Origin: Lepraria neglecta
Taxonomy: Eukaryota > Ascomycota > Lecanoromycetes > Lecanorales > Stereocaulaceae
DNA length: 64,000 bases
Reading direction: 5' to 3'
Assembly (NCBI GenBank): GCA_033220425.1
Contig: CM065652.1
Location: 2,356,001 to 2,420,000, forward strand
Numbering within the stretch: position 1 is the stretch's first letter; the number at the start of each line of letters is the position of its first letter. The notes under the pieces were generated by a model that saw only the letters and a program-made list of their open reading frames with translations, did no database searches and was not told where the DNA came from. Below, piece by piece: positions 762 to 33,448 of this stretch. Made by a program: the position numbers and the translations under genes.

Positions 762-3700
762 ATGATCTCAATACAATGGGATCTGGATGTGGGGCGGTGG
801 TACAAGGCAATTCCTAGGGTCACTGCTTCAGACCTGTCCTGGGCTGTGAGCATGCTCCAGCAGTCTGCCTTTTATTGTGCACTGGCCTGGTCAGTCTAAA
901 TCACATCCCCGCCCTTCCCTAACCCAGAGCTGAGATAACTACAGGATTGCTTATCGTTGCTACCAAATATACGAGAAGCCCAGAGACGAGCTTGAGGTTC
1001 TCCTAGGCCTTGACCCTCCTACCGTACCTGAGGTTTCTCTGGCTGGCATAACATCCGACTCGATCCTCCTGTACCAGAACCCTCCTGAAAATCCCTCTAC
1101 ACCACTCCATCTCGCTATACAGGTCAATGGAATCAAAGGTGGGACAGCCTCTCATCAGGCTACGCGCAACCAATGCTAATGTCTGCCCACAACAGTTGGC
1201 GAATTCGCTCGAGGGGACACTTCGATTCAGATTACGGGCTTGAAACACGGCAATTATTATGGCATTCGAGTTATTGCAACCGATGACGCTAATCTAAAGT
1301 CAATTGGACCTCTCATACGGCTACGCACACTGCCGTTTGCTCAGCCCAGCGACGATGGCACCGTGGGTTCGGAGGATGTTTCTAGCAAATGCGAACCTGC
1401 CGCCGTCCATGCTACATCTACGCCATTCGAGAATACTCTCCCCACTCCGACTATGCGAGAACCCGGTGTAGGTCAGCACCTGCATCAAGCAAGACGAGTC
1501 GTATCAGGTCGACGCAATTCCCCTGCAACGTCAGGCGGAGAACAAGGGAACGTGCAAGCTGGCCAGTCAGAAAGTAGCGATGAAGACGAATCTCCAGGAG
1601 CCATTCAACGCTTGACGCAGAGACTCGAATACCTAAGAGCAGAGAAGGAGAAGGTCGATAGGGAAACGCAAGAGGAAGAGCAGGAGTCTAAGTGGCACCT
1701 GGCAGAATTAACGAAGGAACGGGATCGTCTCAAGGCAGAGTACAAAGAGAAAGAAGAAGCGAGTTCCGAGCTTAGGAAGCACGGTAACTACCTGGATAAG
1801 TTGAACAGGACTGCTCAGAGCAAAAAAGCAGCAAAGGAAAAGCAGCTGCAACAGAAGAAAGCCGACAGGCAGAAGATCAAGGATGACATCGCAAGATGGG
1901 ACAAGGAAACGATTGAAATGAGACAAGATACAGAGGAAATGGTCAAAGGAAAGGCTGATGTTATTGCTTCCAAGGACAAGGAAGTCGAAGAGATACGCAA
2001 GAATCTCGCTGAAGACCTTGCTGTAATCAAATCATTGGAGGAGGAAATCCATATCAAGGGCATCCAGATCAAGGAAATGGAGAAAGAGCAAGAGCAAGAG
2101 AAATTGAACAGTGAGGGTAGTGATGGGCAGGAGCAAGCCCGAATAGAGAGGGAGAACGATCAAGTGTGGGAGAGCAAGATGCAGGCGATGCAGGCCGAGC
2201 TGAACTTCTTATGGCAGAGCGTTCAACAGGCCGAGCCCGAGAAAGTGCAGGCGGAGGAACGTCTGAGCTGGTGGATAGACAGGCGTGCTAGGAACCCCGA
2301 GCAGTTTGCCCCCATACCTTCTTTGGACTTCCCTCCCCCAGTCCAACGAAATAGATCACGAAGAAATCGACAGACCAATTCTCGCGCCAGTACCATCTCA
2401 TCTCCCCCAGCCGGCTATCAAAGTGGATCTCCTGCTTTCAACAACGCTTCGCTGATCTCACCACCTGTTTCAACCGCCTCGCCATTCTTCAACGCCATTA
2501 ACGGTATGACTCTGCCTTCCAATACGGACCGTATGAGTATTGCCCTAGCTGAAGTCGAGACTTTGACTGGTGGCGCCCCCATGAGCCCAGCTGCAGACAA
2601 TCTCCTACCTTCAAATCTTTTTCGAGATGACGACGCCACCAACCAACATTTTTCCAATGCATCTGGTCAGGACTATCTTGGCAATGCAAATCCTGATCTT
2701 TTCCTGGGGCACGCGGTCTCGAACTCGGATGCTTCGGCCCATGGACCCCATTCGCCGGTATCTGCAAGCAGTCGAGCAGGTAGTATTTTCTCGAGCCCTC
2801 ACGACAGTCTACAAAACTTACAGAGCTATCAATCACGCCCGGATCCTTTCAACGAAGGTGAAACTCATCCTGCCAGCTCAACGAGTGCGCCATTCCATCC
2901 TTCGATAGCTGCGGATTCGAATCCACTGGGGACCAGCAGGTTCGCCAACCTGTTTTCTTTCAAGCAGCGCGGAAAGCCTGGAACGCAAGAGCCCCCTCTC
3001 TTAGGAACACTAAAGCAAGGGCAGAGTCAGTCATTTCCTAGGAATATGGAGCAGGATGGTCTCGATTCAGACGCAAATCGACGACGTAGAGGAAGCTACG
3101 GCAACTGGGCCAATCCAATGGCAGGGCTACTAAATCGAAATGCACGAGCTCCAGAAGACTCCGGATTTGTTACGGCTCGCACTGGATCAGGCCGAAGGAG
3201 TCGGCTCAATATGTTTGGTACCAAATTCGACGGTCAAGAATCATCAGCTTTTGCAGACCAGCCTTCATCTTCGAGAACCTCGTCAACCTACTCCTACGAT
3301 CAGGTACTCGCAAGACCTTCAAGTGAAAGCCAGCGCTTTGGATGGCCAAACGTTGAAGGTATGCCGAATCGCAGCAGTCCATTGGGTGCCACTTGGAGTG
3401 GACGACCATGGTCACGCGCACCCTCTCGACGGCCTTCAGTGCAACACGGATCGACCAGTAATTTATCACTTGGTAGCACGCCCTTAGGTCCAGAGGAATA
3501 TCCAGGCTCGTTCTCGAAACAAAGCTCTGAGCAAGCCCCTATCGGCACACGGCCTCAGTCTTCCCAGTGTCCGGCCACTCCTAAACTGAATCCTGCAGCG
3601 CCGACCTTCAAGACGCTTTTCTCTCGGAAGGATGGAGGGAAGGCGTCGAAAACAAGTACCAGGTCTGTTGAGAAGTCGAGAGACAAAGATAGTGAGAAGG

Positions 3701-4182
3701 ACGAGACCGACGAGACAGGCTCCATACATGACACCTCGCCTCAGAACCCGCGCTTATCCCGAGATGCCCAATCAATCACTACCGCAGCTTCGACAACAGA
3801 CTCCCATGATTCCTTGGATCGCTCTACATCTGGAACGCCGACGGATGCAGCGGCTCCTTCTGGGACAAAGGAAACGCTCATGCAAAAGATCACTCGCAAG
3901 AGTAGCAGTAGCAAGTTCAACCTGAATTCATGGGCGAAAGAACGTGGACTGAAGTCCAAACCGGGTCAACCTTCTACGCCTACCGAGTTCGAAGAAGATG
4001 CTTCGAGCGAAGGGCAACTTGGCAAGAGCGCCGAAAGCACAAGCAGCACACCGCTGCAGGAAAAGGCTGGTCGTACTAGTTTATCATGGCCCAACATTCG
4101 GAGAAAATCAAAGAAAGGCGATCAGGCCTTGGCTGAAGCTATGGAGAGAGGCAGTGAAGCGGGAGATGACGATGATGCTTGA
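762..4182 (+). CDS. Fibronectin type III / coiled-coil membrane protein
   Basis: Three exons are inferred: 762-889, 945-1138 and 1196-4182, giving 1102 aa. The first intron splits a Trp codon and the second a Val codon. The ATG at 762 gives the short N-terminus typical of this fungal family; it leads into one membrane helix (about residues 26-46) and then a fibronectin-III fold ending near the motif NYYGIRVIA. Next come a long charged coiled coil (roughly residues 210-450) and a low-complexity Ser/Pro-rich tail ending in an acidic stretch. Family members are conserved in Pezizomycotina but their role is unknown; a membrane-anchored scaffold is an inference. The gene looks intact. Confidence 0.82.
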
Positions 4183-4706
4183 GCGATGTCGGGATACGAA
4201 CGTACGATATGGCTTCCATGCCTCTAATAGCCCATCATTTTGATTTTCACGTCCTAAGCTTGGCCTTGTACGGCCAACATACTGGGGCTTTCACCCCAGG
4301 TCTGACTGTATCTAGATACTTCTTGGGCTATGGTACCTACTTGCCTTCAGGGTTCCTCGTAGCCTCCTTCAATTCTTGTACATTAGGCAGGTTTACGCAG
4401 TCTTCATAGGAATTCATGCTACTTGAATGATTACGGACTTCTCTAGCATCAACTAGTGTAGCATAGGATACTAGACATAGAACTGCATAGCCTACACAGG
4501 AATCCCATACCAATGGTGCGTAAAACCATGTTTCTCGTATGGAGGGTCATCACGCTTCGACTTGAAATCGCAAGCCCTTATCGGTATTATATCCACCCTA
4601 ACATAGCCCCGATAAGAAATAAATTTCATCATCGTCGAAATCCTTCGCTCCAAACTTCTATATTTACCTCTCCCTCACCACCATGCCTTCCACCCCCTAA
4701 CAAAAC
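4183..4706. other. intergenic, no gene seen
   Basis: This is the 3' region of the fibronectin-III gene and the promoter of the next gene. Pyrimidine-rich CT tracts just before 4707 are typical of fungal promoters and 5' UTRs. No other coding signal was found. Confidence 0.5.
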
Positions 4707-6078
4707 ATGGACACAGCAGCCTACCTAACCTCCCAAGGCTGGGCCGGCCACGGCCACGCCCTCCACCACAGCGGCCGCGGCATCACAAAACCCCTCGCCG
4801 TCACCCAGAAAAACAACGTCCTTGGTATCGGCAAGAAAAGGCACGACGCCCATGCTGATCAGTGGTGGGCGAGAGCTTTTGATGAGACGTTAAAGGGGAT
4901 AAATACTACAACAAATGAAGGGACGGGGAGGATTGAGGGTGTGGTGCTTGGGAATGGGGCGAGGGCGTTGGAGATGGCGGGGAGAGGGGGTGGGAAGTGG
5001 GTTGGGGGGAAGGGACTCTATGGCCATTTTGTTAGGGGAGAGAGTTTGAGTGGGACTTTGACGCCTGAGGAGGGGGGTGGTGGGGGATCTAAGGAGACAT
5101 CGACCGGTGGGGGTGAAGTTAAGATCGAAGAGCTGGAGGATGTTGTGATGGAGACTGTGCCGAAGGAGAAAAAGGAGAAAAAGAAGAAGAGTAAGAAGCA
5201 GAGTAAGAAGCAGAAGCAGAAGCATCGAGAGGTTGTGGCTGGGGATTCTGGTGCTGCGAATTTCGGAGACGTTATGGCAGGACGTGGAGTTGGTGAAGTA
5301 AGGGAGGAGCCAACCCAGGCGATATCAAAGGGGAGCAAGAAGAGCAAGAAGCGAAAACACCGGGATGCTGAAGCTGAAGCTCAAGTCCCAGATCTTGGGG
5401 CAACCGCCGAGAGGCCTATACAGGTTTGCAGGTTCACAACCATTAACAATGGCCAAGACCAGTGGCAACTTTCGGTCTTAGATCCAGAAAAAATGGAAAA
5501 GGAGGAACGACAGCAAAGAAAGAGTTATTGGGAAGGCAGACACGCTCAGGCTTCGACTCCTGGACATAGCCAGCCAACCCAAATGCCCAATGAGCCAACA
5601 GAAAAGCCCAAAAAATTGGCTCGATCCCGAAAAAACAAAGGCACGCGAAGAAAAGCGTCGTAAAAAAGCCAAGGTCCAGCGCGCCATCGAAAGCGAGCGA
5701 AAAGCAATTGGCATTCAGACGAAGCCAGTGAGGGAGAAGAAGTACATCGATTCGGAGTTGCATAGGGCGATGATTGCGCGGAAGAATGATAGACACAAGG
5801 CCGTCAAGACTAAGAAAATGATTGAGGATGATAGGGAGAGTAATCAGAAGAGGTGGAAGGGTGAGTTCTCTAGGCTCGATACGGGGAGGAAGAAGAACAG
5901 TTTCGTACTGATTTTGGGATGGCTGGGGGCTAAGGAGTGGGGAAGCCAGCTGTACACAAACCATAGGGATTTGGTGGAATTATCAGGATCGAGGGCGTGT
6001 CGGATGAGAAGGCGAAGCAGCTACCTATTACAGGTTAGAAACCCTAACTACAAGGCACTGGCTATCCTCCGATTCTAA
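4707..6078 (+). CDS. TMA23-like G-patch nucleolar protein, frame break
   Basis: The N-terminus has the TMA23/G-patch signature: LTSQGWAG, then GRGITKPL, GIGKK and the DAHADQWW motif before AFDETLK. Lys-rich nucleolar-type tracts follow. Yeast Tma23 acts in ribosome biogenesis, and a similar nucleolar role is inferred. The first frame stops at 5661-5663, but the next frame from about 5616 continues with coding-like basic sequence to about 5860. One base too many in the A6 run at 5610-5615 would explain this (indel or assembly error). Alternatively an intron at 5424-5481, which starts GT, ends AG and has a CATTAAC branch-like motif, would also switch to the second frame. Beyond 5860 the end is unresolved: the second frame stops at 6078, while the third frame is coding-like from about 5975 and splices at 6034-6092 to a stop at 6181. 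Confidence 0.65.
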
Positions 6079-6181: not shown

Positions 6182-7021
6182 TGGGAACCCCAATGGGTCT
6201 GTGTCGGAGGCCAGATTATTCTCAGTAGGAGGGAAATTATCACATCAATGAAGGTGTCGAGCAATCCAGTATAGACTTCAAATAGTCAATGAAGCAGATG
6301 TGATTAATGAAAAGCTGTGCAAATCCATCAACTGCCTCCTCCAAGGAATATCTTTATCGATCATGAGAGCTTTGATACTTCTTGCGAACGTGATGATTGT
6401 GTTTGCATTGATCCCCATATTGGGGAGAGCAGGTTTGATAGCTATTTACCCATCACATCGAAAACCCGGAATTAACAGATCTCTAAACTTTCTTCGCACT
6501 ACATTCCACATCAGCTTGTGCATGTAGTACTGAACTAACTGGGGTTTCCACATTTCCACTGTCGAACGTCGTCGTCCAGTCTGTGGTCAAAAATCCAGAC
6601 AGCAAGCGCTGGTCTGCTCAATTAGAGCTAGAATTTAAAAGTTCTATACTCGGGAACAGTGACAACAGAAGCCATTTTTACTCAAGATGAGGAGCTCTTG
6701 CTCCAGGAGAGTGGGATGTGAAGATTTTGAAGCTCGAAAGCATCAAAATTAAACGGAGTCAATGCTCAAAGCGTCTAGGAAGTGAAGAGCTTGCTGCGAG
6801 GGAATAGCAGCTAGTTGGGAAGTCTGCGTTCAACAAGATGTGGAAATATTGGCGGTTTTGCTTTCGAGAAGTCTGAATCGGGAGGTCTTGTAGTCAAATA
6901 CGATCGGAACTTGCAGTCTTACAGGGAAAAATTAATGGTGGTAAGGAGATGCAGTCAAGTATTGTCCACAACATAAGTCATGAGTCAGCGGCAAACTTCA
7001 TGCCCCAAATCACAATCAAAG
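6182..7021. other. intergenic, no gene seen
   Basis: This lies between two convergent genes. A short ORF at 6300-6527 lacks family similarity and splice context, so nothing in this stretch is called. Confidence 0.45.
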
Positions 7022-8214
7022 CTACCTATCAGCATCCCCACAAAGCAGCCAAGGCCTCTGCTCCCAGAAGTCATCTTTGATGATATCAGTGTGCTGTACC
7101 ACGATCTCAGCTTTCGACCGCCGCTTCCGCTCCTTCTCCTTTTGCGTCTTCGATATCTCAACTTCGCTGTTTTTGGATACGGCAAGCGCAGCTGGATCGG
7201 GAACCTCTTGATGATACTGCACAGCATTAGCATAAAACTCATTTGAAGGAATTGGATTAGGTACCGGGTAGCTTACATCACAGAAGATGATACTTCCCTT
7301 CCTGTATATCTCGGGCTCATTGTTGTAATTTATGCCGAATTGTGAGAACAGGATCTCGTTCTTGTCTGCTGCTAAAGTGCCCTGCCCGAAGCTCTCTGTA
7401 AACCTGAATCTATTTATAGTAGTTTTATATCATACCTTCAGCTTCTCCTCCGCCTTCGTAACATCCATTCCTCCGCGCTGTACCAGAGCCCAGAACGTAG
7501 TGTTGTAAAGGTTATTTATGTGGCCTGTTCTCCGTCTCAATATATGACAACCAGGGAAAGCGGGATGGAATCAAATGAAGTAGAGCTTACAATCAACCTG
7601 TCTCCAGCTCATGTAATCCCTCATCGTCTGAGTAGAAGGATAAAGCACCACTCTCCCATCGAACGATGGGAGAAGGGGCGTCAAAGGTTTTGATGGGACG
7701 AACGTAGACCAGAGATGCAAGTAATATGCTGTGAATGTCGAGACAACCGTCGTCAAAATCTTGCTAGATAGGGAAACATCATTAACATCCAAGGCTTTTC
7801 GAGATAAGATCGAAGCCGAGGAACTACCTCTCACGCCTATCAAAAAGCCTAGACGACCTCTCAAATATAAAGCTGAACAGCCATCAGCACCGCCATAGCT
7901 GGATGTGAGACCAGCATGGCTTACCTGAACTCATCACTAATCCCATAAGCAAAGCTGATATCAGGCAGTTCCTTCATCACAGCTGCAGCTGCGGCGTTCA
8001 TCAAGTCGAGTGCGGCGCGGTCATTGGGTTTCTCGAAGTCGTGCTTGGTAGAGAACCTGGCATCGTGTAAGTCATATGGGAATGGGTGAGTGGAGAAGGC
8101 GGAGGACTACTTATGGAACCCACGCCCATCGACGCGGACGACGATGTAGGTATTGGGAAGGAGGGTAGTAGTTTGTTCAAATGTTTTTACGTATTCATAT
8201 TTCGAGTTGGCCAT
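7022..8214 (-). CDS. THG1: tRNA-His guanylyltransferase Thg1
   Basis: Thg1 adds the essential G-1 to the 5' end of tRNA-His by 3'-5' polymerisation, which is required for recognition by histidyl-tRNA synthetase. Seven exons on the minus strand are inferred: 8214-8111, 8056-7925, 7872-7828, 7763-7591, 7524-7436, 7381-7277 and 7216-7022, with introns of 52-66 nt. They give exactly 280 aa, close to the family length. Metal-binding and catalytic motifs are intact: VRVDGRGFHKFS near the start and YGISDEFSF about residue 75. Later family blocks MSWRQVDCHINNLYN, FWALVQRGG and GTLAADKNEILF are present. It is tandem with RPB1, whose stop lies 596 bp upstream of this start. Confidence 0.93.
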
Positions 8215-8809
8215 ATTTACGGAGAGGGGTGGAGATGAAATTGAAAGCTTGAGTAGCAGATTTTGGAAGCACCCGGAGGTACAGAATTCATTTCATGAGG
8301 CGTGGTCGTAATATTTGGCATTCTGAAGTATTATCTACGTATGACTCACAGTACACAACGACAATGTTGTTGCTGAAAATCACTCTATTGCATCGATGTA
8401 TCTGCCCCCCACCTCCAACTTCATAGCGCTTTTATTGTACATGAAAATGGATATGCCTGATGTCCTTTGACCATGCTTCTGCAATTGCAGGCAATCAAAA
8501 ACGCCATTTTCAAAAATCCCTCCGACGACGAGCCTGCAAGCACAATCTGGTTCGAGCTGGACTTTTGCTCCTTTTAGGCTCTGAAAATGCAATGCTCCGG
8601 GCGCCATGCATGAAGACTACCACGCGAATTCCTCTAAACTAATGGGAAGCACGCCGTTGGGGCCGCTCGTCCGTCACTCTGACAGGAAAATCGAACTATA
8701 GAAATACAGGAGTGAAAGACACGCCTTCGCTTCATCGATCCTCTCGTATCTATTGAATCTTAGCCTTAGGTCAAGGGCACTTTGGGAACGCATCTCTAGG
8801 TCGTTATGT
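8215..8809. other. intergenic between RPB1 stop and THG1 start
   Basis: This holds the RPB1 3' region and the THG1 promoter. Short ORFs on both strands (for example 8460-8642) have no recognisable content. Confidence 0.5.
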
Positions 8810-11800
8810 TTATGACTGCTCTGGACTGAAAGTTGGTGAGGTTGGCGTCCATTTTGGGGACCCAGAGCCTGGTGGGGAGGCCGATCGAGCATCAGATCCA
8901 GGCCTGAGCGATTTCGAAGTTAGCATTTCCCTCTGAAGATATTTCTTGAGTCAAAGGTCATGTCTCAAGGGCTAGAGAAGTCTTCTGGCGCCCAGGGTAT
9001 GTATTATAGTTCAAGAGGTACGGAAGGGGAGACGATAAGTTAGGTAAATTAACTCACGTGAACTGCGGTGATGAGGGTGAGTACGAAAGTGGAGATGTCG
9101 GCGAGTACACGGGCGAAGCCGGGGAGATGCTTGAATTTCCTTTGAAAGCAGGGGAGCTTGGGCTATACTGAGGCGAGCTAGGGCTGTATTGAGGCGACTT
9201 CAAGGTTTAGATGTTAGCAAAGGCTCTAGAGGAGCTGAACAAGGGAAGACTTACTGTAGGTGATATTGAGGAAGCTCCGAATGCCTACAGTATTTCAAAG
9301 TCAGCATCGCCCTTTCTAAACGAACAGTGGAGCCGCAGGTCTAGTCTGCAGGAAGGAAGCTGTATGGTCTCTCTGTTGCCGAAAATAGGTTTGTAATGCG
9401 GATTGAGGCTTCAATGCGAAAAGAATTGCTAGAAGATGGAGCTCACCGGTGATGAGGGTGAGTACGAGGGTCTAAACAAGTCAGTGTGATAACAAATATC
9501 AAGAGGGAGGGAAGTACGAACGAGGTAGGAGAATACGAAGGGGAGGTGGGGGAAAAGCTTGGTCTGTGAAAGGTTAGCAACTGCGTCGTTTCGAGTGGAG
9601 AAGAGATTGCTTCGAGAACGTACGATGTAGGGCTATAGCTAGGAGATCTACACAAGATCAGCAAGTTTCAAACTGTTGGAGGATTCTGTACTTACGAAGG
9701 ACTGGCCCCCATAGCAAATTGGGGAGATGAGGGTGAGTATGACGGTCTAGGAACAAGTCAGTATGTTAATAAATGTCAAGAGGAAAGGAGTTACGAACGA
9801 AGTGGGCGTGAAGGCACTGAACGATTGCGGAATTAGCATTTCCATTTCAAATCAATTCTTAAGTGACAAGACATGTCTCAGGAGCCGAGAAATCGGGCTC
9901 CCAAGTATATCTCGCAACTCGGGATTAATAACACAGAAAGGGGAACATACGGGGACGCTGCGTAAGCAGGAGAAGCTAACTATCGTCAGTAGACTTCCTA
10001 GATCGTGGAAAGGGAGAGACAGTTACCTGGCGAAAATCTGGGTGAAGTTGCAAAGGCGCCACCAGGACTCTGATCGGAACGTTAGCATCAGGCCTTAAGC
10101 ACCTCGACCAAAGCAAAGAACATACCGAAGGAGAGTAGAATCCGGGGCTGCTAGGCGATGCACCAAATGGACTTGTGGGTGACGTGTTGAAAGGGCTGCT
10201 AGGTGAGTACCCTCCTGGGCTCCTGCTTGAATAAGGACTCAAGCCGCCACCAAATCCTTGAGGCTGATACTCGGTAAATCCTCCTGGAGTGGCAGAACCG
10301 GAATGAGAGATAGGCGAGAAGCTTGCTCCGTAATCTGGGGTGCCGATGAAGCGGGGATCAGCCTCTTGCATCGGTGAGCCGCTGTCATATGGCGTCATAG
10401 CTCCATCAGCCATGGTGCTGCCTTTGATGCCAATGTTGGGCATGATGCCTAATCTAGCATTGTCCGAGATCACGCTGTCCAGAAGATTCTGGTCCAAGTA
10501 AACCTCCATTTCTCCAGTACCTAGAGGAGCCAACTGTCCAAGCATGACGTTCTCAGACACACCTCTGCAGTCATCAAGCTCACCGCAAGCGGCAGCCTCG
10601 AGAAGGATCTCGACAGTTTCTTCAAAAGAACATCTCATCAGGGCGCCGGTATCTGCTCTGTTGATTCCATGACGAGTGATGGCCATGAGATGACCCCGAG
10701 CGGTCATGACATCAACGAGAAGTGCCAGATGTCGATGATTAACGTAGGAACCATCAAAAGCCAAGACTTGGGTCAGTTCTTTCATGAGAGCTGACCTAGT
10801 AGCTTCGATACCGAACACCTCGAAGACTTCGATGAAAGAATTCGAATAAGTGCGGGTAGTATCGACTCCAGGTATCGTCAAGACTTGACCAAGGGCCGAG
10901 CCGCTGGTATCGAGGAACCATTCCTTGCAGAGGGGGTCATCCTTAGCCATGACCAAGGCTCCATCTCCTCCTTGACGAATCTTGGTACGTGTGTTGAGGA
11001 AAGCTCGTTCAATACCGGGAACGCCTCGCAGTGTCAGTGTATCAAGGATGTGAGCTTCGAGTCGCTTTAACATCAAGTCTTCTTCAAGGTCGTCATCTTC
11101 TTCTCCCTTGCCATGATCTTGAATCATACGAATGCGAACCACTTGCTCATCCGCATTATCGTCGCTGAAGATAACAGCAAGATCTTTGGTGTAGTTCTCT
11201 TTGATCTTGTTAGCGACGTCTTGAACCGTCAGACCCTTATCAAGCAATGCACGTCGTCCAAGTATAATACGCAAGAGCCAGCGCGACTGGCGGAATTGGT
11301 CTTCCATATCACCGCCGGGTAAGATGAAATAAGATTCCACCATGTCGCGATCTGCTTCGATGACAGTTGATTGGATGTCAGGGTCATAGTAGATCTCTGT
11401 GGTCTCTGTGACGGAGCGAAGAGTGGTGTGCTCCACGGCACTTCGAAGTAGCTTAGCGCTTTCTTGATTGCCGGTACTTCCTTCCTCTTGATAGACTGTC
11501 ATAGACGGAGTCTTGATGTTCTTGGCAACGTTCAAAATCTCTTTTAGACGTGGCACACCGAGAGTCACATTTTTGGATGATACACCAGCAAAATGGAAGG
11601 TGTTGAGGGTCATCTGGGTAGCAGGCTCTCCAATGGACTGCGCAGCCAGAACTCCAACCATCTCGCCAGGACTGACGGTAGCACGGTTAAAACGACTCTC
11701 AATCTCTCCAATTACATGCTGCAAGGCCAATTTATTGAGGGAGTTCTCCATGACCAAGCGTTTAAAGGCTAGACGCGACCGCAGCTGGGCCTTGAATAGC

Positions 11801-14800
11801 AGGGTAGCATTGTGTTGGCCTTCCCTCGATAGTTCATCGTCACCTCGAACGACCACGAGCCTATCAAGTAATTCGTTGACTGCTGGAATTACTTCGGCTG
11901 GGTGTAAATTGCTCCGAGCGCCATTCTTGATCTTGAAAGTGGTCTTTGCTGTGTCTAATATCCGAATCACGTTGATTGGAAGCTGAAGCTGCTCATTGTC
12001 ATCAGGTCTGACCTCCCGCAAAAACTTACGCGCCGCCGAGAGCTGAGTGTATTCGTCTTCCAGGTACTTCTGAGTCTCGAGATCTCCAATCAACTCGTTC
12101 GCTTGTTCCAAAAACTCTGGGGAGATGGAGGTCTCTGGTCTTGAGTCCATCAGGTCAACACGGAACTTCTTCTCGAATTGCTTGTCCGAGCATGTGATTA
12201 TATCAACACGCTGCTGTTCGATGTGCACACCATCGAGACCATCTTCGCCATAGACAAATTGTACGATATCGCCTAGAGAATTGCGAACAGTGCCATCATA
12301 TTTAGCCATAACATCTTCCAAGGCCTTGACCAAACGTCGTTGAATGTAGCCTGTCTCAGCAGTCTTCACAGCAGTATCGATAAGACCCTCACGACCAGCC
12401 ATAGCGTGGAAGAAGAATTCGGTCGGTGTCAAGCCTCGCAAGTAAGAGTTCTCCACAAATCCTCGGGATTCTGGCGAGTAGTCGTCCTTTGTGAAATGGG
12501 GTAGTGTTCGATACTTGAATCCAAAAGGTATACGCTTGCCCTCGACCGACTGCTGACCCACGACGGCAGTCATCTGGGAAATATTGATCGTTGAGCCTTT
12601 AGATCCAGAGCGAGCCATTTGGGTAGCGTTGTTGAGATCCTTGAGACTCTCCTCAGTCACCCGTCCGGCATCGTCACGCGCATTGTTCAATGCCTTCGAG
12701 ACCTTGCTCTCAAAGGTCTCTCGCACATTCATGCCTGGAAGAGATTCGAGCTCGTTATCGGTTGCAGCCTGTGTAATAGCACTGACTTCCTGTTTCTGCT
12801 TGTTGACGGCGCCCTCGATCCGGGTTATGGTTTCCTTATCTGGTATAGTATCACCTATGCCAATGCTGAAACCGTTGTGCAGAAGCCAGTAGTTGACAAC
12901 CGTCTGAGCTCCGTTGAAGAAGCCCATGGCAGCCTCCCACCCCTTCTCGTTGAAGATGATGTGGACAACGCCACCACCAGTAGCGCCGACGGACTTCTTA
13001 TTCATGAGCCCATACATTATTTCGCCGCCAGAGATTAGCAATCCGTCATCATTGAGAGGGCAGAAGCCTTCATCACTGGATCGGAGAAGATTTAGGCCGG
13101 TCGGAAGTACGAGACTTAATATTTGCTTTCCAGTCCACATGGGATGCGGCTTGACGATAGCAGGCTGAGGAATGACCCCGTCCCAATCTGGGACCCAGAG
13201 CAGGATGTTCATGACTAATTCCTTAGTGAGAAAGACATCCCTTCGGCACATCTTGTAGATACCACACAATGTATCTTGCACGATACCCATCAAAGGCCCA
13301 TTGCGTTGTGGCGACACGATGTTGAGAGGAACCATACACAGCTGGTTGACTTCGGCGCGAGTTTCTTCGCTCTGAGGTACGTGCAGATTCATCTCGTCTC
13401 CATCGAAATCGGCATTGTAGGGAGAGGTCACAGAAAGATTCAGGCGGAATGTCGAGAACGGCATGACTCGAACGCGATGGCCCATCATGGACTCTTTGTG
13501 CAGCGACGGCTGGCGGTTGAAGATGATGTAGTCACCATCAACAATATGCCGTTCAACCTTCCAGCCATACTGCAAGGAGATCTCCCCAGCACGTTTGTGA
13601 TGACGCAGATCGATCCTCTCGCCAGAATCTCGAATCACATACTTTGCGCCAGGATGCTCGTTAGGACCGTTCTTGACTAATTGATGGAGCTTCTGGATGT
13701 TGTATGGGGTCACGGTTTCAGGGTATGTCAAGGTCCTTGCAACGCTTCGCGGAACCCCTACTTCGTCCAGAGATAGATTAGGATCTCCGGTGATGACCGT
13801 ACGTGCTGAGAAATCAACACGCTTTCCCATCAAGTTCCCACGGAGTCGACCTTCCTTGCCCTTTAAACGGGCTCGAATCGATTTGACTGGACGTCCAGAT
13901 TTCTGCAAGGCTTGAGGCTGCCCAGCAATATCATTGTCCATATAGGTTGCAACGTGGAACTGAAGCAGCTGTTCAAATTCGTTCACCACGTGCGCAGGAG
14001 AACCCTCAGTTTCGCAACGTCGAACATTGCCATTGGCACGGATGATATCGCCAAGTTTGTACGTCAGATCGTCCTCGCCGCGCATACCGTTGCCTCCGTC
14101 CACAGAGATGCTGGGCCGAACGGGGGGAGGGGGGACAGGAAGCACTGTAATGATCATCCATTCTGGGCGGGCATAGTCGTTGCTCAGTCCCATCTTCGTG
14201 ATGTCCTCCGTAGATATGTGACGGAATATATTCAGGGCCATCTGTGGAGTTATAGGCTTTTTCTCAGGCTGCTGTCCCTCGTTCTCCTCGTCACCTTTCT
14301 GAGGCTTCCAGGTGCCGGTCAATTTGAGTCCCTCCCGGCGAACCTCAGGTTGGACGTTTCCGCAGCCGCCGTGATCATGCTTGGGTTGTTTGTCCTTCTC
14401 AGGAGGAGCATCCTCGTCCAATGTCACCGAAGTTTCGCAGATCATCTTGGGCTTGCAGAGTCGCCAGACCGCATCGAAGCGTCTCTTGGGATCTCGGTAA
14501 CGTAGAGCGTCCGCAAATTGTGGATTGCTCTAAAAAGTGGCAACGTCAGTAAAGGTTATAAGACAAGATTGGCCATCCCTTAGGGATAACTAACTTCATC
14601 TACTAAGATCTTGCCACAGTTGTGGCAGACTGTCTCCAGCAGTTTCTTGATCTTCGTCATGAAACCTGAATCACAGAGTCAACACTGTGCACACAGAATC
14701 GAGGGCGCTTGATATGACATACCAACATGGAAGACGGGCACTGCGAGCTCAATATGCCCAAAATGTCCCGGACATTCTGACATATTCTCGTCGCAGGTAG

Positions 14801-15008
14801 CGCATTTGTAGGCTCTATCAATAGATCCAAGGCGAGGATCTGCCAAACCCATCTGTCGTGGTCGCTGGTTCTGCTCGTCCATCGTCTCCGGATATTCTAT
14901 CGGCGCCACACTCATGTTCTTGATCTCTTCTGGTGAGAGAAGCCCGAACTGAATCTCCTGGATCGAGCGCAGCGGCGCGCTGGAGAACTGGAAGTTGAGG
15001 TTCGCCAT
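8810..15008 (-). CDS. RPB1: RNA polymerase II largest subunit RPB1
   Basis: This is the catalytic largest subunit of Pol II, 1744 aa by my model. Exons: 15008-14723, 14665-14595, 14529-10126, then CTD exons 10069-10027, 9957-9951, 9816-9799, 9746-9696, 9647-9624, 9563-9522, 9471-9447, 9284-9255, 9197-9058 and 8903-8810. All phases agree and the stop is TAA. N-terminal zinc-binding Cys/His residues ([17 protein letters not shown]) and the metal-binding active-site motif [10 protein letters not shown] are intact; bridge and trigger regions follow ([22 protein letters not shown]). The tail is made of diverged YSPTSPS-like heptads and ends [16 protein letters not shown]. The split tail is unusual and is described separately. 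The gene is divergent from SWD1. Confidence 0.95.
8904..9057 (-). repeat. RPB1 CTD intron, copy A2
   Basis: This 154-nt intron before the last RPB1 exon has an acceptor half that matches the intron at 9817-9950, including the TTAGCATTTCC block (the branch-site region on the coding strand) and CATGTCTCA. The donor halves are dissimilar. Confidence 0.75.
9472..9521 (-). repeat. RPB1 CTD intron, copy B2
   Basis: This is the 50-nt partner of the intron at 9747-9798, with the same donor GTTCGTA, the same central sequence and the same AACAAGTCAGT block near the acceptor. It implies duplication of an exon-intron unit inside the CTD. Confidence 0.85.
9747..9798 (-). repeat. RPB1 CTD intron, copy B1
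   Basis: This 52-nt intron is clearly similar to the intron at 9472-9521. Read on the plus strand, both carry AACAAGTCAGT near the left end and TACGAAC at the right end, with TCAAGAGG between, at over about 80% identity by eye. The flanking downstream exons are also similar (both encode PSYSPSSP). Confidence 0.85.
9817..9950 (-). repeat. RPB1 CTD intron, copy A1
   Basis: This 134-nt intron has an acceptor-proximal part of about 90 nt that resembles the intron at 8904-9057. On the plus strand both begin CTGA-CGATT, contain TTAGCATTTCC and later CATGTCTCA at matching spacing. Confidence 0.75.
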
Positions 15009-28034: not shown

Positions 28035-31000
28035 TCATGACATAGGCGACACAGCTTCACCGTCTGGAGGGCGGCGGGCCTCTTTCTCGGGTAGTTCCTC
28101 TGCCGCCTCTGGTATGGTGGCGCAGTAACGCTTAAGGACTTGCTTAAGTTGTGGGCGGCGTATGGGCTTTGGCAGGAAGAAGTCCATGCCCGAGTCCATG
28201 CATTCTTTGACGTTGCTTTCCTCGGCAAAGGCAGTGAGGGCGACGATGGGAGCAGAGTAGCCCATCTCTCGTATGAGGCGCGTACTTTGGATACCGTCTA
28301 GATTAGGCATCTAGGGTATAATATTAGCTAAAGTTGTCTCTCCCTACCATGGAGCATCATTACCTGGACATCCATGAAGATCAAGTTGAAGAATTTTCGC
28401 TGCTCCATGCTCTCTTTCACAAGCTCGAATGCCTCCTGACCATCTTTTGCAACGGTCACGTCTGCGGACGAATTAGCTTGAGTCGCTCTATTGCGCTAGA
28501 GGGTATACCATAAATGTCTTCCAGTTTCAACATTCGAAGCACGACCTCTTGGTTGACCTTGTTGTCCTCCGCCACTAGCACACGAACCTTGTCGCCGCTT
28601 TGAGCCGCCTGAGCCGCAACACGTTCCATCGCTGCCAATTGTTTACCAGGGGACTCCAATGGCGATGTCGCAGCGAAGAAGGGTTGGCTCAAACCAACCA
28701 GCCTAGGCTTGGCAGGTGTGTCGAAGCTATTAAGCCCTGGCGGCACGGGTTCACCGTCGATAGACAGCTCGGAAGAAGATCGCTTCCGCTGAGGTGAGAC
28801 ATTCCCGTCCACTTCTGGAGCCAAAGTAATGCTATTGCGTCGCGAGTTCATGCTAGAGCCGGTTGTACTGTCGGCTCGTTCCTTTGTGAAGATCAAAGGT
28901 ATTCGCATTATGAACTTGCTCCCAACGCCTTCCTGACTTTCGAGCGTCATTGACCCCTTCATCAGGCTGGCTAGCTGTGAACAAATGCTCAGGCCAAGCC
29001 CTGTACCTCCGTATTTCTTGTTGAGCCCGATGTCTCCCTGTACAAAAGGTTCGAAGACGCGTTGCTGCTGGTTTTCAGGAATACCAGGCCCGGTATCTTC
29101 GACTTCGAAGTCAAAGAGCAATACTCGAGCATTTTGCGGCGGAGGTGTTGAGGATCGTTCTCGAACGGCAATGGATGGGATTGCCTTGGGCTCGTTTCCA
29201 TTGATGTGGAGTGCGGTATCCGAATACTTTGCTCTCTCGCGACCTCGACTAGCTGAGGCAGAAGAGCCAGAGTCCGACGCTACCCGTCTTGATGCTCTAG
29301 GTGATGGCCGTTTAGATCCCTTGGATACCTTGGACTGTTTCGACTGCATTGAACCCTTGCGACTCTCGGCCTTTTCTGGTGCGTCCCCCACACATCTTAT
29401 CCGAACATTCACAGAGCCATTAGGGGGTGTAAACTTGAGGCTGTTGCTCACGAGGTTAATGATTACTTGAAGTATTCTGTGCTGGTCACCCCAAAGGAAC
29501 AAGTCCCTGACTCGACCTGTTCCGTACGGACCAAAGCCGCTGTGCAACGGGGCTCCACCAGCCGTTTCCAAGCCATCCTGCGGGCCCTGATAGCTCACGA
29601 GTAGCTTGATAGACCCGTCTTTCGCCTGCTTCTCGAAAATTGAGACCACTTGGGAGCACACATCTGCTAAGCGGAACTCTCGTTCGTCCAAGGTGAGATG
29701 CTGGCCCATCTGATTCTTGGTAAACGTCAAGAGATCTGTCAACAGGTGTAGCAGAAGGTCCCCCGATTTATATATTATGCCGAGCGACCTTTTGATCTTT
29801 GTATGGTCCTCCTCTTGCATGCACACCGCACACATTCCAAGAATACCGTTTAGTGGTGTTTTCAGCTCGTGCGAAATGTTTGCAATAAACGCCGTCTTGC
29901 TCTCGTTGGCGGCTTCGGCAGCCTTTTTGCTTATCTCGAGTTCCCGTGTTCGCTCCTTAACCCTCTCTTCAAGTCGCTCATACTGCATCATGAGCTCCTC
30001 CGACATCTCATTGAATGTCCGCGTGAGATCTGTGAGCTCATCGTGGATAACGTGCTTCCCATCTTGTACCTTGCCAGGAATTCGAAAGGTCTGCCGGGGC
30101 TGTCGATTTCTGTGCTGAGCGTCTTTCTTTTTGCTGCCACCTCGCCATCGGGATATTCGTCTTATGAAACCTTCCTTCTTGGCTTCAGCGGTCATAGCCT
30201 CTGTCATCCCTTCCTCTTCACCAGACTCCAGGCCATCGTTGCTGTCCGAGACCGAAGAACGCAGACTTCCACCTCCGTCCTCTGATTCGTATCTGTAAGG
30301 TTCGACTGTTTTCTTTGTCGCTTCTCGTAACCTTCTTATTGGTCGTACTGAGATGTGGGCCAAGGGCAACAACAGTAAGAGCATGACACCGACGATACCA
30401 AAAACGCAGGCCAACAAAACGTTTCGAAGGTGATCGATCGGCGCAATTACTTCCCCATGGGATTGCTCGACAATGAGCGCCCAATTGACCATGGGAGACA
30501 TGGGCAGAGCATAACCCGTTGAGACCTGGATATTCTCTTCATTGTGGGTAGATATGTAACTACCCGCATTGTTAGGAGCCCCTGTCCTTTTTGTAAAGGC
30601 CTCCAGGACTGCTGGGTAACTTTGCATTGTAAATGGTATATTTGGCATGCCATAAGCGCGTGCTGGATGACGAGTGCTTCGGGATGCATTCTGTAATGGT
30701 GGAATTACAAAGTGAACATCGAGTTTCTTTGCGGCGGTTCTGTTTGCCTCGATATTGCCAGGATTGAGGGTACTTGACGGCAATTTCTGGTCTGGCGTGT
30801 TCGGTGCGACGATGAGGATTTGCCCTGTGGTCCCCAGGCCTTCGAGCGAGTTCTCCAAAGCAAAGATGGACTGTGCGCTACAGACGATAGTGATCCAGCC
30901 AAGGGTGTCCAGGATGGAGGAGTCGTTATTGACTGGTACAGTCAGCGAAAGCAGGCCAAATGTTTGATTGATCAACCAGGGCCCTATTAATATGGTCGAA

Positions 31001-31716
31001 TTGGGGTATAGAGGAGTTCCATTCCAGAAGGCATGGGACATATTGAAGGTACTGTTGATGACGGTGGAAGTGAAGGTCAGATTCGGATATAGTTCGACAG
31101 GGTAGCCGGTGCCATTGTCGCCCAGATAGACAGGTGTGTCATTGGCGTTCAGGTCCGACGGCAAGGGTATTTTTCCCATGATGTCTGGTGAAGTAACGTT
31201 CAGCAGACTATAGGGCCCCATGACACCAGTCCCATTCTTAGAGACGACCTGCGCCTCCAGGAGCATATCCGCCGAGAGTCCCCCTGATAGTGCGCTTTGC
31301 ATATCTGTAGTTGCGCGAACCCAGTTGGCGTTGGTGTCATTTCCTTGGTTGTAACGTTGCAAAGCGCTCTGAAGAGCGATACGTGTAGATATTGCTACGA
31401 CGCTTGATTGAAGCAGACGGAGGTTTGAGTTGAGTTGGTTGGCGTATAGGGACGCTGTGAGCGTGAGACCGGATGTTCTAACGGAAGGATTAGTCTCGAT
31501 CTTGGTAACTCAGTGCGAATTTAATTGTTTACCTGATACCAATAACAAAGTTGTAGTTGTTGACCCACTGCGATGGAAGCCGTCAGTATAATTGCCACAA
31601 CCCTGAAAGAGCTCGAGAAGGTGGGTACTTACTGTTGCAACGGCCACCACAGCCAAAGCGACGAGCGTGGTGAGGAGGACTAGGAGTCCCAATTGCTCCC
31701 GTATCCCAATTCGCAT
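28035..31716 (-). CDS. SLN1: SLN1-type hybrid histidine kinase (group VI, TcsB-like)
   Basis: This is the membrane osmosensor at the top of the HOG-pathway phosphorelay. Five exons: 31716-31633, 31567-31533, 31477-28509, 28461-28364 and 28310-28035, giving 1153 aa. The start is the ATG at 31716 ([10 protein letters not shown]), followed by TM1, a large N-glycosylation-rich extracellular sensor, TM2 near residue 395 and a HAMP-like linker. The kinase H-box is [16 protein letters not shown] (His near 575). ATP-binding boxes are [10 protein letters not shown] and [13 protein letters not shown]. The receiver domain starts [14 protein letters not shown], with phospho-acceptor Asp in LIFMDVQMP and Lys in FLPKPI. 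All key residues are present. An intron falls between codons of the MDVQ and MPNLDG segments. Confidence 0.94.
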
Positions 31717-32779: not shown

Positions 32780-33448
32780 TCATTGCCATTGGTGTGTCTG
32801 ATGAATCTGGTGAATCCACGGGGTTTTCACGTCCGGGAAGACCTGCTTGTTTATTTCGAAGACCAGCTGACGTGGCCATCGGTATGGCCCACAACAGTTC
32901 ACGGGGGCATCCGTCACTCTCCCATCTCGCGTAGATAGTTGTCCTGGCGTCCGATTGCCGCTGGAAAGCTTCTCCACATCGCGCTCGTCGAACTCTTCAG
33001 AGTTGCTCATAAGACCCTGGGGTTTCTTGTGGATGACGTTCAGAGAAACAGCAATGTCAGACTAGGACAATTTCAACTTGACTCTGGCGACAATGATATG
33101 CTCAAGGACCTCGGGAGTTACTTCCTCGAATTGCTCTTCGACTGCTGTTGCTTGATTTTTCTCTGCTTCACCTGCAGATCTCGGAGTCAGCATTACCCTT
33201 CAAAAGACGAGTCACAGCAGCAGGAGCAGAGTCTAGGGGACCAAAAGATGTTTTGAAGCAATGAATAGACGGATTGGAAGGTTGAAACCTCGAAAAGTGC
33301 ACGTTCTAGGCTCCGTCTCCACGAATTTGAGGATCTCCGCCTTCTTAACCGACTCTTGGTAGATTTTGTCTTGGCAGCAGTTGGAAAGCGTAAGACCATC
33401 GAACTCCAAGGGATCCGCTCCTGATTTCAAATGGCTACTCAGAGACAT
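32780..33448 (-). pseudogene. orphan gene, possibly with one in-frame stop
   Basis: From the ATG at 33448 a coding-like frame (EFDGLTLSNCCQDKIYQESV) runs to 33289. A GT at 33288 and an AG ending at 33172 define a 117-nt intron that keeps phase. The second exon (TAVEEQFEEVTPEVLEHIIV) meets a TAG at 33064-33062, which would give 89 aa. The same frame then stays open and coding-like (SDIAVSLNVIHKKPQG, SEEFDERDVEKLSSG) down to 32780. Either the protein is short or a longer gene carries one stop. No family is recognised, and the donor GTTTCA is weak. Confidence 0.3.

Follow-up and report, generated by a model that had tools for sequence, protein, structure and literature searches.

Repeated local duplication as the probable source of an intron-rich CTD-coding end in an RPB1 gene of Lepraria neglecta

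Why should the C-terminal domain (CTD) of RPB1 be encoded by a string of tiny exons when the core of the same gene lies in a single uninterrupted exon? The question is raised by a locus of Lepraria neglecta which we followed up in a window of 64 kb (64,000 nucleotides, the whole stretch of DNA that was analysed). On the minus strand, positions 15008-8810 hold an intact RPB1 gene of 1750 aa, the joined frame of which is open and has a single stop at its end. The gene has 12 introns in 5253 coding nt and its layout is, from 5' to 3', two short introns, a core exon of 4404 nt and then ten introns. The features are as follows, in gene order:

8810..15008, minus strand: RPB1 gene (open joined frame, Pfam Rpb1 domains, PDB RPB1 matches)
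14666..14722, minus strand: 5' intron A, 57 nt (joined RPB1 frame)
14530..14594, minus strand: 5' intron B, 65 nt (joined RPB1 frame)
10126..14529, minus strand: core exon, 4404 nt, without introns, extending to the first CTD-like repeats
10070..10125, minus strand: CTD intron 1, 56 nt, phase 0 (splice chain and unguided scan)
10027..10069, minus strand: CTD exon 1, 43 nt (dropped by the scan at cost -10)
9976..10026, minus strand: CTD intron 2, 51 nt, phase 1 (use of a second acceptor, 18 nt further downstream, would give a 7-nt exon)
9951..9975, minus strand: CTD exon 2, 25 nt (splice chain and scan)
9817..9950, minus strand: CTD intron 3, 134 nt, phase 2 (paralogue of intron 10 in its 3' part)
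9799..9816, minus strand: CTD exon 3, 18 nt, phase 2-2 (lost from the scan at costs -7 and -10)
9747..9798, minus strand: CTD intron 4, 52 nt, phase 2 (paralogue of intron 7)
9696..9746, minus strand: CTD exon 4, 51 nt, phase 2-2 (has one of three TACTCACCCTCATC copies)
9648..9695, minus strand: CTD intron 5, 48 nt, phase 2 (splice chain and scan)
9624..9647, minus strand: CTD exon 5, 24 nt, phase 2-2 (splice chain)
9564..9623, minus strand: CTD intron 6, 60 nt, phase 2 (open if retained, adding 20 aa)
9522..9563, minus strand: CTD exon 6, 42 nt (as long as two heptads), phase 2-2
9472..9521, minus strand: CTD intron 7, 50 nt, phase 2 (paralogue of intron 4)
9447..9471, minus strand: CTD exon 7, 25 nt (seven consecutive codons in common with exon 9)
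9285..9446, minus strand: CTD intron 8, 162 nt, phase 0 (3' part possibly related to that of intron 10)
9255..9284, minus strand: CTD exon 8, 30 nt, phase 0-0 (lost from the scan at costs -7 and -10)
9198..9254, minus strand: CTD intron 9, 57 nt, phase 0 (splice chain and scan)
9058..9197, minus strand: CTD exon 9, 140 nt, longest of the CTD exons (splice chain)
8904..9057, minus strand: CTD intron 10, 154 nt, phase 2 (paralogue of intron 3 in its 3' part)
8810..8903, minus strand: CTD exon 10, 94 nt, ending in the stop codon TAA (splice chain)

The gene is a member of the RPB1 family because: (i), seven Pfam Rpb1 domains (1-7) lie in 10126-14526, within the core exon. (ii), RPB1 chains of the PDB match a 458-aa stretch at 10126-11499, the best being 3h0g (E 7.5e-137), presumably a fission yeast structure, and the 260-aa end of the protein matches the CTDs of solved RPB1 chains. 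(iii), the spliced tail matches Pfam PF05001 (RNA_pol_Rpb1_R) with 65.1 bits in 11 stretches, and the last 198 aa contain 15 non-overlapping heptads with at least five of the seven consensus residues. Like the CTD described by PF05001, the tail is made of YSP[ST]SP-type repeats; it differs in that its coding region is split by ten introns and in degenerate blocks such as SPAF..SSISP. Relatives were also found at 11 loci in contigs of a viral collection (25-44% identity) and in a bacterial and archaeal collection, where the best 80 of 581 share 34-46% identity and are archaeal by name with the exception of one that is binned as a bacterium.

The tail itself, at 10125-8810 on the minus strand, represents the last 492 coding nt and reads as 163 aa in an open frame when ten GT..AG introns are removed. 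All ten contain a CTRAY branch-like pentamer starting 13-20 nt before the intron end (offsets counted by eye in introns 3, 8 and 10) and so have the makeup of fungal-type spliceosomal introns. The first-pass annotation had proposed that the CTD is split into ten small exons, and at the sequence level its chain holds, as do nine of the ten exon lengths that it gave; exon 2 is better taken as 25 nt (9975-9951) than as 7 nt. Intron 2 (10026-9976) ends in ACTGACGATAGTTAG, which yields the 25-nt exon, and the 7-nt version would follow from an alternative acceptor, ...TTACGCAG. As 18 nt separate the two acceptors, either one keeps the frame and could serve. The earlier remark that several of the introns are alike in phase was also correct: introns 3-7 and 10 are all in phase 2.

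Does such a chain stand out from what splice-like signals yield by chance? A dynamic-programming scan was run with CTD-like residue composition and generic splice signals as its input, the weights being set on general grounds and no splice sites being supplied. At an intron cost of -4, the scan returned exactly the ten CTD introns with a score of 111.2, against a best of 24.9 in 200 dinucleotide shuffles and of 31.3 in 186 random window segments (200 drawn, 14 near the locus removed), and all of these nulls had at most three introns. At a cost of -7, eight introns were kept and exons 3 and 8 were lost (score 84.1 against a best of 26.0 in 60 shuffles); at -10, there were seven introns, exons 3, 8 and 1 were lost and one acceptor was shifted. 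Exon 8 is separately supported by its translation: the residues that run across introns 8 and 9 recur unbroken within exon 9, where an uninterrupted 11-residue block resembles the 10-residue block of exon 8. The evidence for exon 3 is weaker. One might still suppose that the 3' end is decaying or misread and that the real protein terminates early in the CTD, given that the unspliced core frame passes non-heptad residues to a stop at 9978-9976. We find this scarcely credible, in view of a heptad frame that continues across ten canonical introns and scores far above shuffles, of the 11 PF05001 stretches, and of repeats that have the same residues in differing synonymous codons.

Introns are crowded in the tail, with ten per 492 coding nt in the CTD against none in the 4404-nt core exon. 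If introns were spread uniformly, at least 10 of the 12 would fall in the last 492 nt with a probability of about 3e-9, a value to be read knowing that the region was picked post hoc. The contrast is between a crowded CTD tail and an intron-free core exon. Directly downstream of RPB1 and on the same strand lies a Thg1 gene (tRNA-His guanylyltransferase, Pfam; about 7000-8214, minus strand). Starting at 8214, this neighbour has 6 introns in a CDS of 843 nt (splice sites placed by eye), hence the genome is not intron-poor. That observation speaks for ordinary descent, in which RPB1 genes of this fungal group have many CTD introns and any duplications are old and unremarkable. Such a history is conceivable, though we would not bet on it, and it is compatible with the explanation that we favour below; alone, however, it leaves the paralogy among the introns and the contrast with the intron-free core unexplained.

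The kinship of the introns is what the first-pass annotation overlooked, as some of them appear to be copies of one another. By blastn in the window, introns 4 and 7 share 83% identity along 47 nt (E about 1e-8), and introns 3 and 10 share 73% along 79 nt of their 3' parts (E about 1e-9); none of 300 shuffles that kept the donor, branch pentamer and acceptor fixed reached the score of either pair. These are the only clearly related pairs among the 45 that the CTD introns can form. Four more are suggestive, with shuffles as good in 0/300 (4-9), 3/300 (8-10), 4/300 (4-10) and 6/300 (7-10) cases, uncorrected for 45 pairs, so most CTD introns have no shown paralogue. Within the best 14 of the 45 pairs, the next, 4-5, had its score reached by 27 of 300 shuffles. 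A kinship of introns 1 and 9 was rejected (45 of 300 shuffles as good), and intron 8 is matched by a profile built from introns 3 and 10 at an E of 0.19 only.

The two clear pairs end in different ways. The similarity of introns 4 and 7 runs on into the following exon, and that of introns 3 and 10 largely ends at the 3' splice site; paralogous introns together with copied flanking exon DNA are found for 4/7 only, the 3/10 likeness being mainly intronic. Repetition is also apparent in the exons, where exons 4, 7 and 9 have TACTCACCCTCATC in common as exact DNA. Exons 7 and 9 both carry TCG TAC TCA CCC TCA TCA CCG and exon 4 nearly so, and the other YSP[ST]SP repeats, among those listed, mostly use codons different from this exon 7/9 block. 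Identical 12-mer pairs number 16 in the spliced tail and 16 in the genomic stretch, with 13 of the former and none of the latter lying within 200 nt, a contrast partly due to the greater length of the genomic stretch.

Read from its sequence, the CTD end of this intact RPB1 gene is a mosaic in which ten small exons alternate with ten introns, most of them short, and its best explanation, which we consider probable, is the repeated local duplication of CTD segments that bore introns, combined with ordinary splicing. Growth by duplication is suggested because introns 4/7 and 3/10 are paralogous and because exons 4, 7 and 9 are DNA-identical in stretches, and several overlapping duplications are suggested because the copied blocks differ in their ends. 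We thus propose that CTD stretches already holding introns were duplicated locally, several times and in overlapping fashion, each copy with its own ends, and that this was the source of the mosaic at least in part. The copied segments would have brought their introns along, and these would also space the repeats apart. All ten introns would most likely be spliced out constitutively through recognition as short introns, leaving one normal heptad CTD. Some observations fit the proposal less well: a copying of introns only would also end the 3/10 similarity at the 3' splice site, the profile of these two introns weakly matches a site beyond the gene (33259-33177, E 0.0018), and the scan loses exons 3 and 8 at a stricter intron cost.

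Precedents exist for parts of the proposed scheme. In yeast, the CTD-coding DNA rearranges, its repeats expanding and contracting, as PMC4882425 describes. The likeness to the present case lies in repetitive CTD-coding DNA that can grow and shrink; the difference is that the accessible text of that paper does not mention introns, while the segments duplicated here would include them. Introns can also arise by tandem duplication, as PMC4974935 describes for a potato gene. A tandem duplication spanning an intron-exon boundary is the common element, but a single new intron was gained in potato, whereas whole introns were apparently copied within repeats here. In Zymoseptoria tritici, intron duplications other than introner-like elements, including tandem ones within a gene, are given as less than 1% of single intron gains in PMC4457414, and on that figure duplication within genes may be an uncommon route.

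Alternatively, the related introns could belong to a mobile family that spread by repeated insertion, the CTD being one of many targets. The fact that the 3/10 similarity stops near the 3' splice site is what such a family would predict, and the profile of introns 3 and 10 does match one candidate site elsewhere. This site, on the minus strand at 33177-33259 and followed by CAG, is a candidate intron of a putative gene, and the match (33259-33177) has an E of 0.0018 with introns 3 and 10, of 0.0006 when intron 8 is added and of 0.082 when introns 4 and 7 are added. However, the match is weak and consists mostly of branch point and acceptor, GTTTCA, the donor placed by eye, is a poor one, and the surrounding gene is putative. 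Moreover, the similarity of introns 4 and 7 includes flanking exon DNA, and blastn of the ten CTD introns against the 64-kb window reached E 0.22 at best outside the CTD, so we judge a mobile family unlikely. A profile of introns 4 and 7 likewise gave no other match in the window better than E 0.69. A 3'-end motif was not informative: written from introns 3, 8 and 10 and the 33.2-kb site, it found exactly those four sites, which is circular, and with three mismatches its 24 matches are at the level of chance (mean 17.7 in shuffles, 24 being reached by 13 of 100). Among 84 crude intron candidates in the window, the 3' module occurred in CTD introns only, under a donor rule that would miss the 33.2-kb site. 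Introner-like elements and the sister (stw)introns of fungi, as described in PMC4457414 and PMC8469720, resemble the present introns in being mutually similar in sequence; they are found across unrelated genes, unlike the two clear pairs seen here in one gene, with 64 kb searched.

If local duplication is retained as the preferred reading, what would the mosaic do to the message? Constitutive splicing of the CTD introns is the simplest reading. When introns are retained one at a time, a stop appears within the intron for seven of the ten (introns 2, 3, 4, 5, 8, 9 and 10); retained intron 6 adds 20 residues in frame, and with intron 1 or 7 retained the frame changes but stays free of stops to the end of the joined CDS. 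Variation of CTD length by exon skipping appears possible on paper. In a frame test covering nine of the ten CTD exons (exon 10 left out), skipping of exons 3, 4, 5, 6 or 8 was in frame and skipping of exons 1, 2, 7 or 9 broke it; the earlier suggestion that the 42-nt or the 24-nt exon could be skipped without loss of frame is therefore right, these being exons 6 and 5 among the five. One could thus argue that regulated exon skipping or alternative acceptors produce CTD isoforms of different lengths, especially as either of two acceptors 18 nt apart would begin exon 2 in frame and the scan itself omits exons 3 and 8 at stricter cost. Such isoforms are nevertheless quite unlikely in our opinion, since the keeping of frame may follow from duplicated phase-2 segments with no need for selection and since fungi vary their splicing mostly by intron retention, exon skipping being rare.

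It is tempting to speculate that an intron-packed CTD is a built-in sensor of splicing that also stabilises CTD length, the thought being prompted by the role of the CTD in promoting co-transcriptional splicing. Poor splicing of the ten-intron end would then yield RPB1 messages that are truncated or contain stops, and with them a lower output of polymerase, and the introns would hold unstable heptad repeats apart and stabilise the length of the domain. We regard this as a long shot. The locus matters more directly as a compact case of introns copied together with protein repeats. A description of a CTD divided into many exons was not found among literature matches listed by title, with most subscription journals outside that search, which is weak evidence of novelty. 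The length and degeneracy of fungal CTDs are read from gene models, in which tiny exons are easily missed, and a CTD may as a result falsely look truncated or degenerate. According to one review (PMC4215175), greater degeneracy of the CTD appears to accompany multicellular complexity in fungi and red algae, a statement that could be checked again with hidden introns in mind.

In passing, a search for Rfam RNA elements in 8700-10300 gave one match, of 20 bits against a gathering score of 50 and on the other strand, which was dismissed as chance. Elsewhere in the window, long open frames on the plus strand at 4704-5660 and 1183-4179 have no Pfam match at E 0.01, and a large open frame on the minus strand at 28456-31509 encodes a histidine kinase (HisKA and HATPase_c, with HAMP below cut-off).
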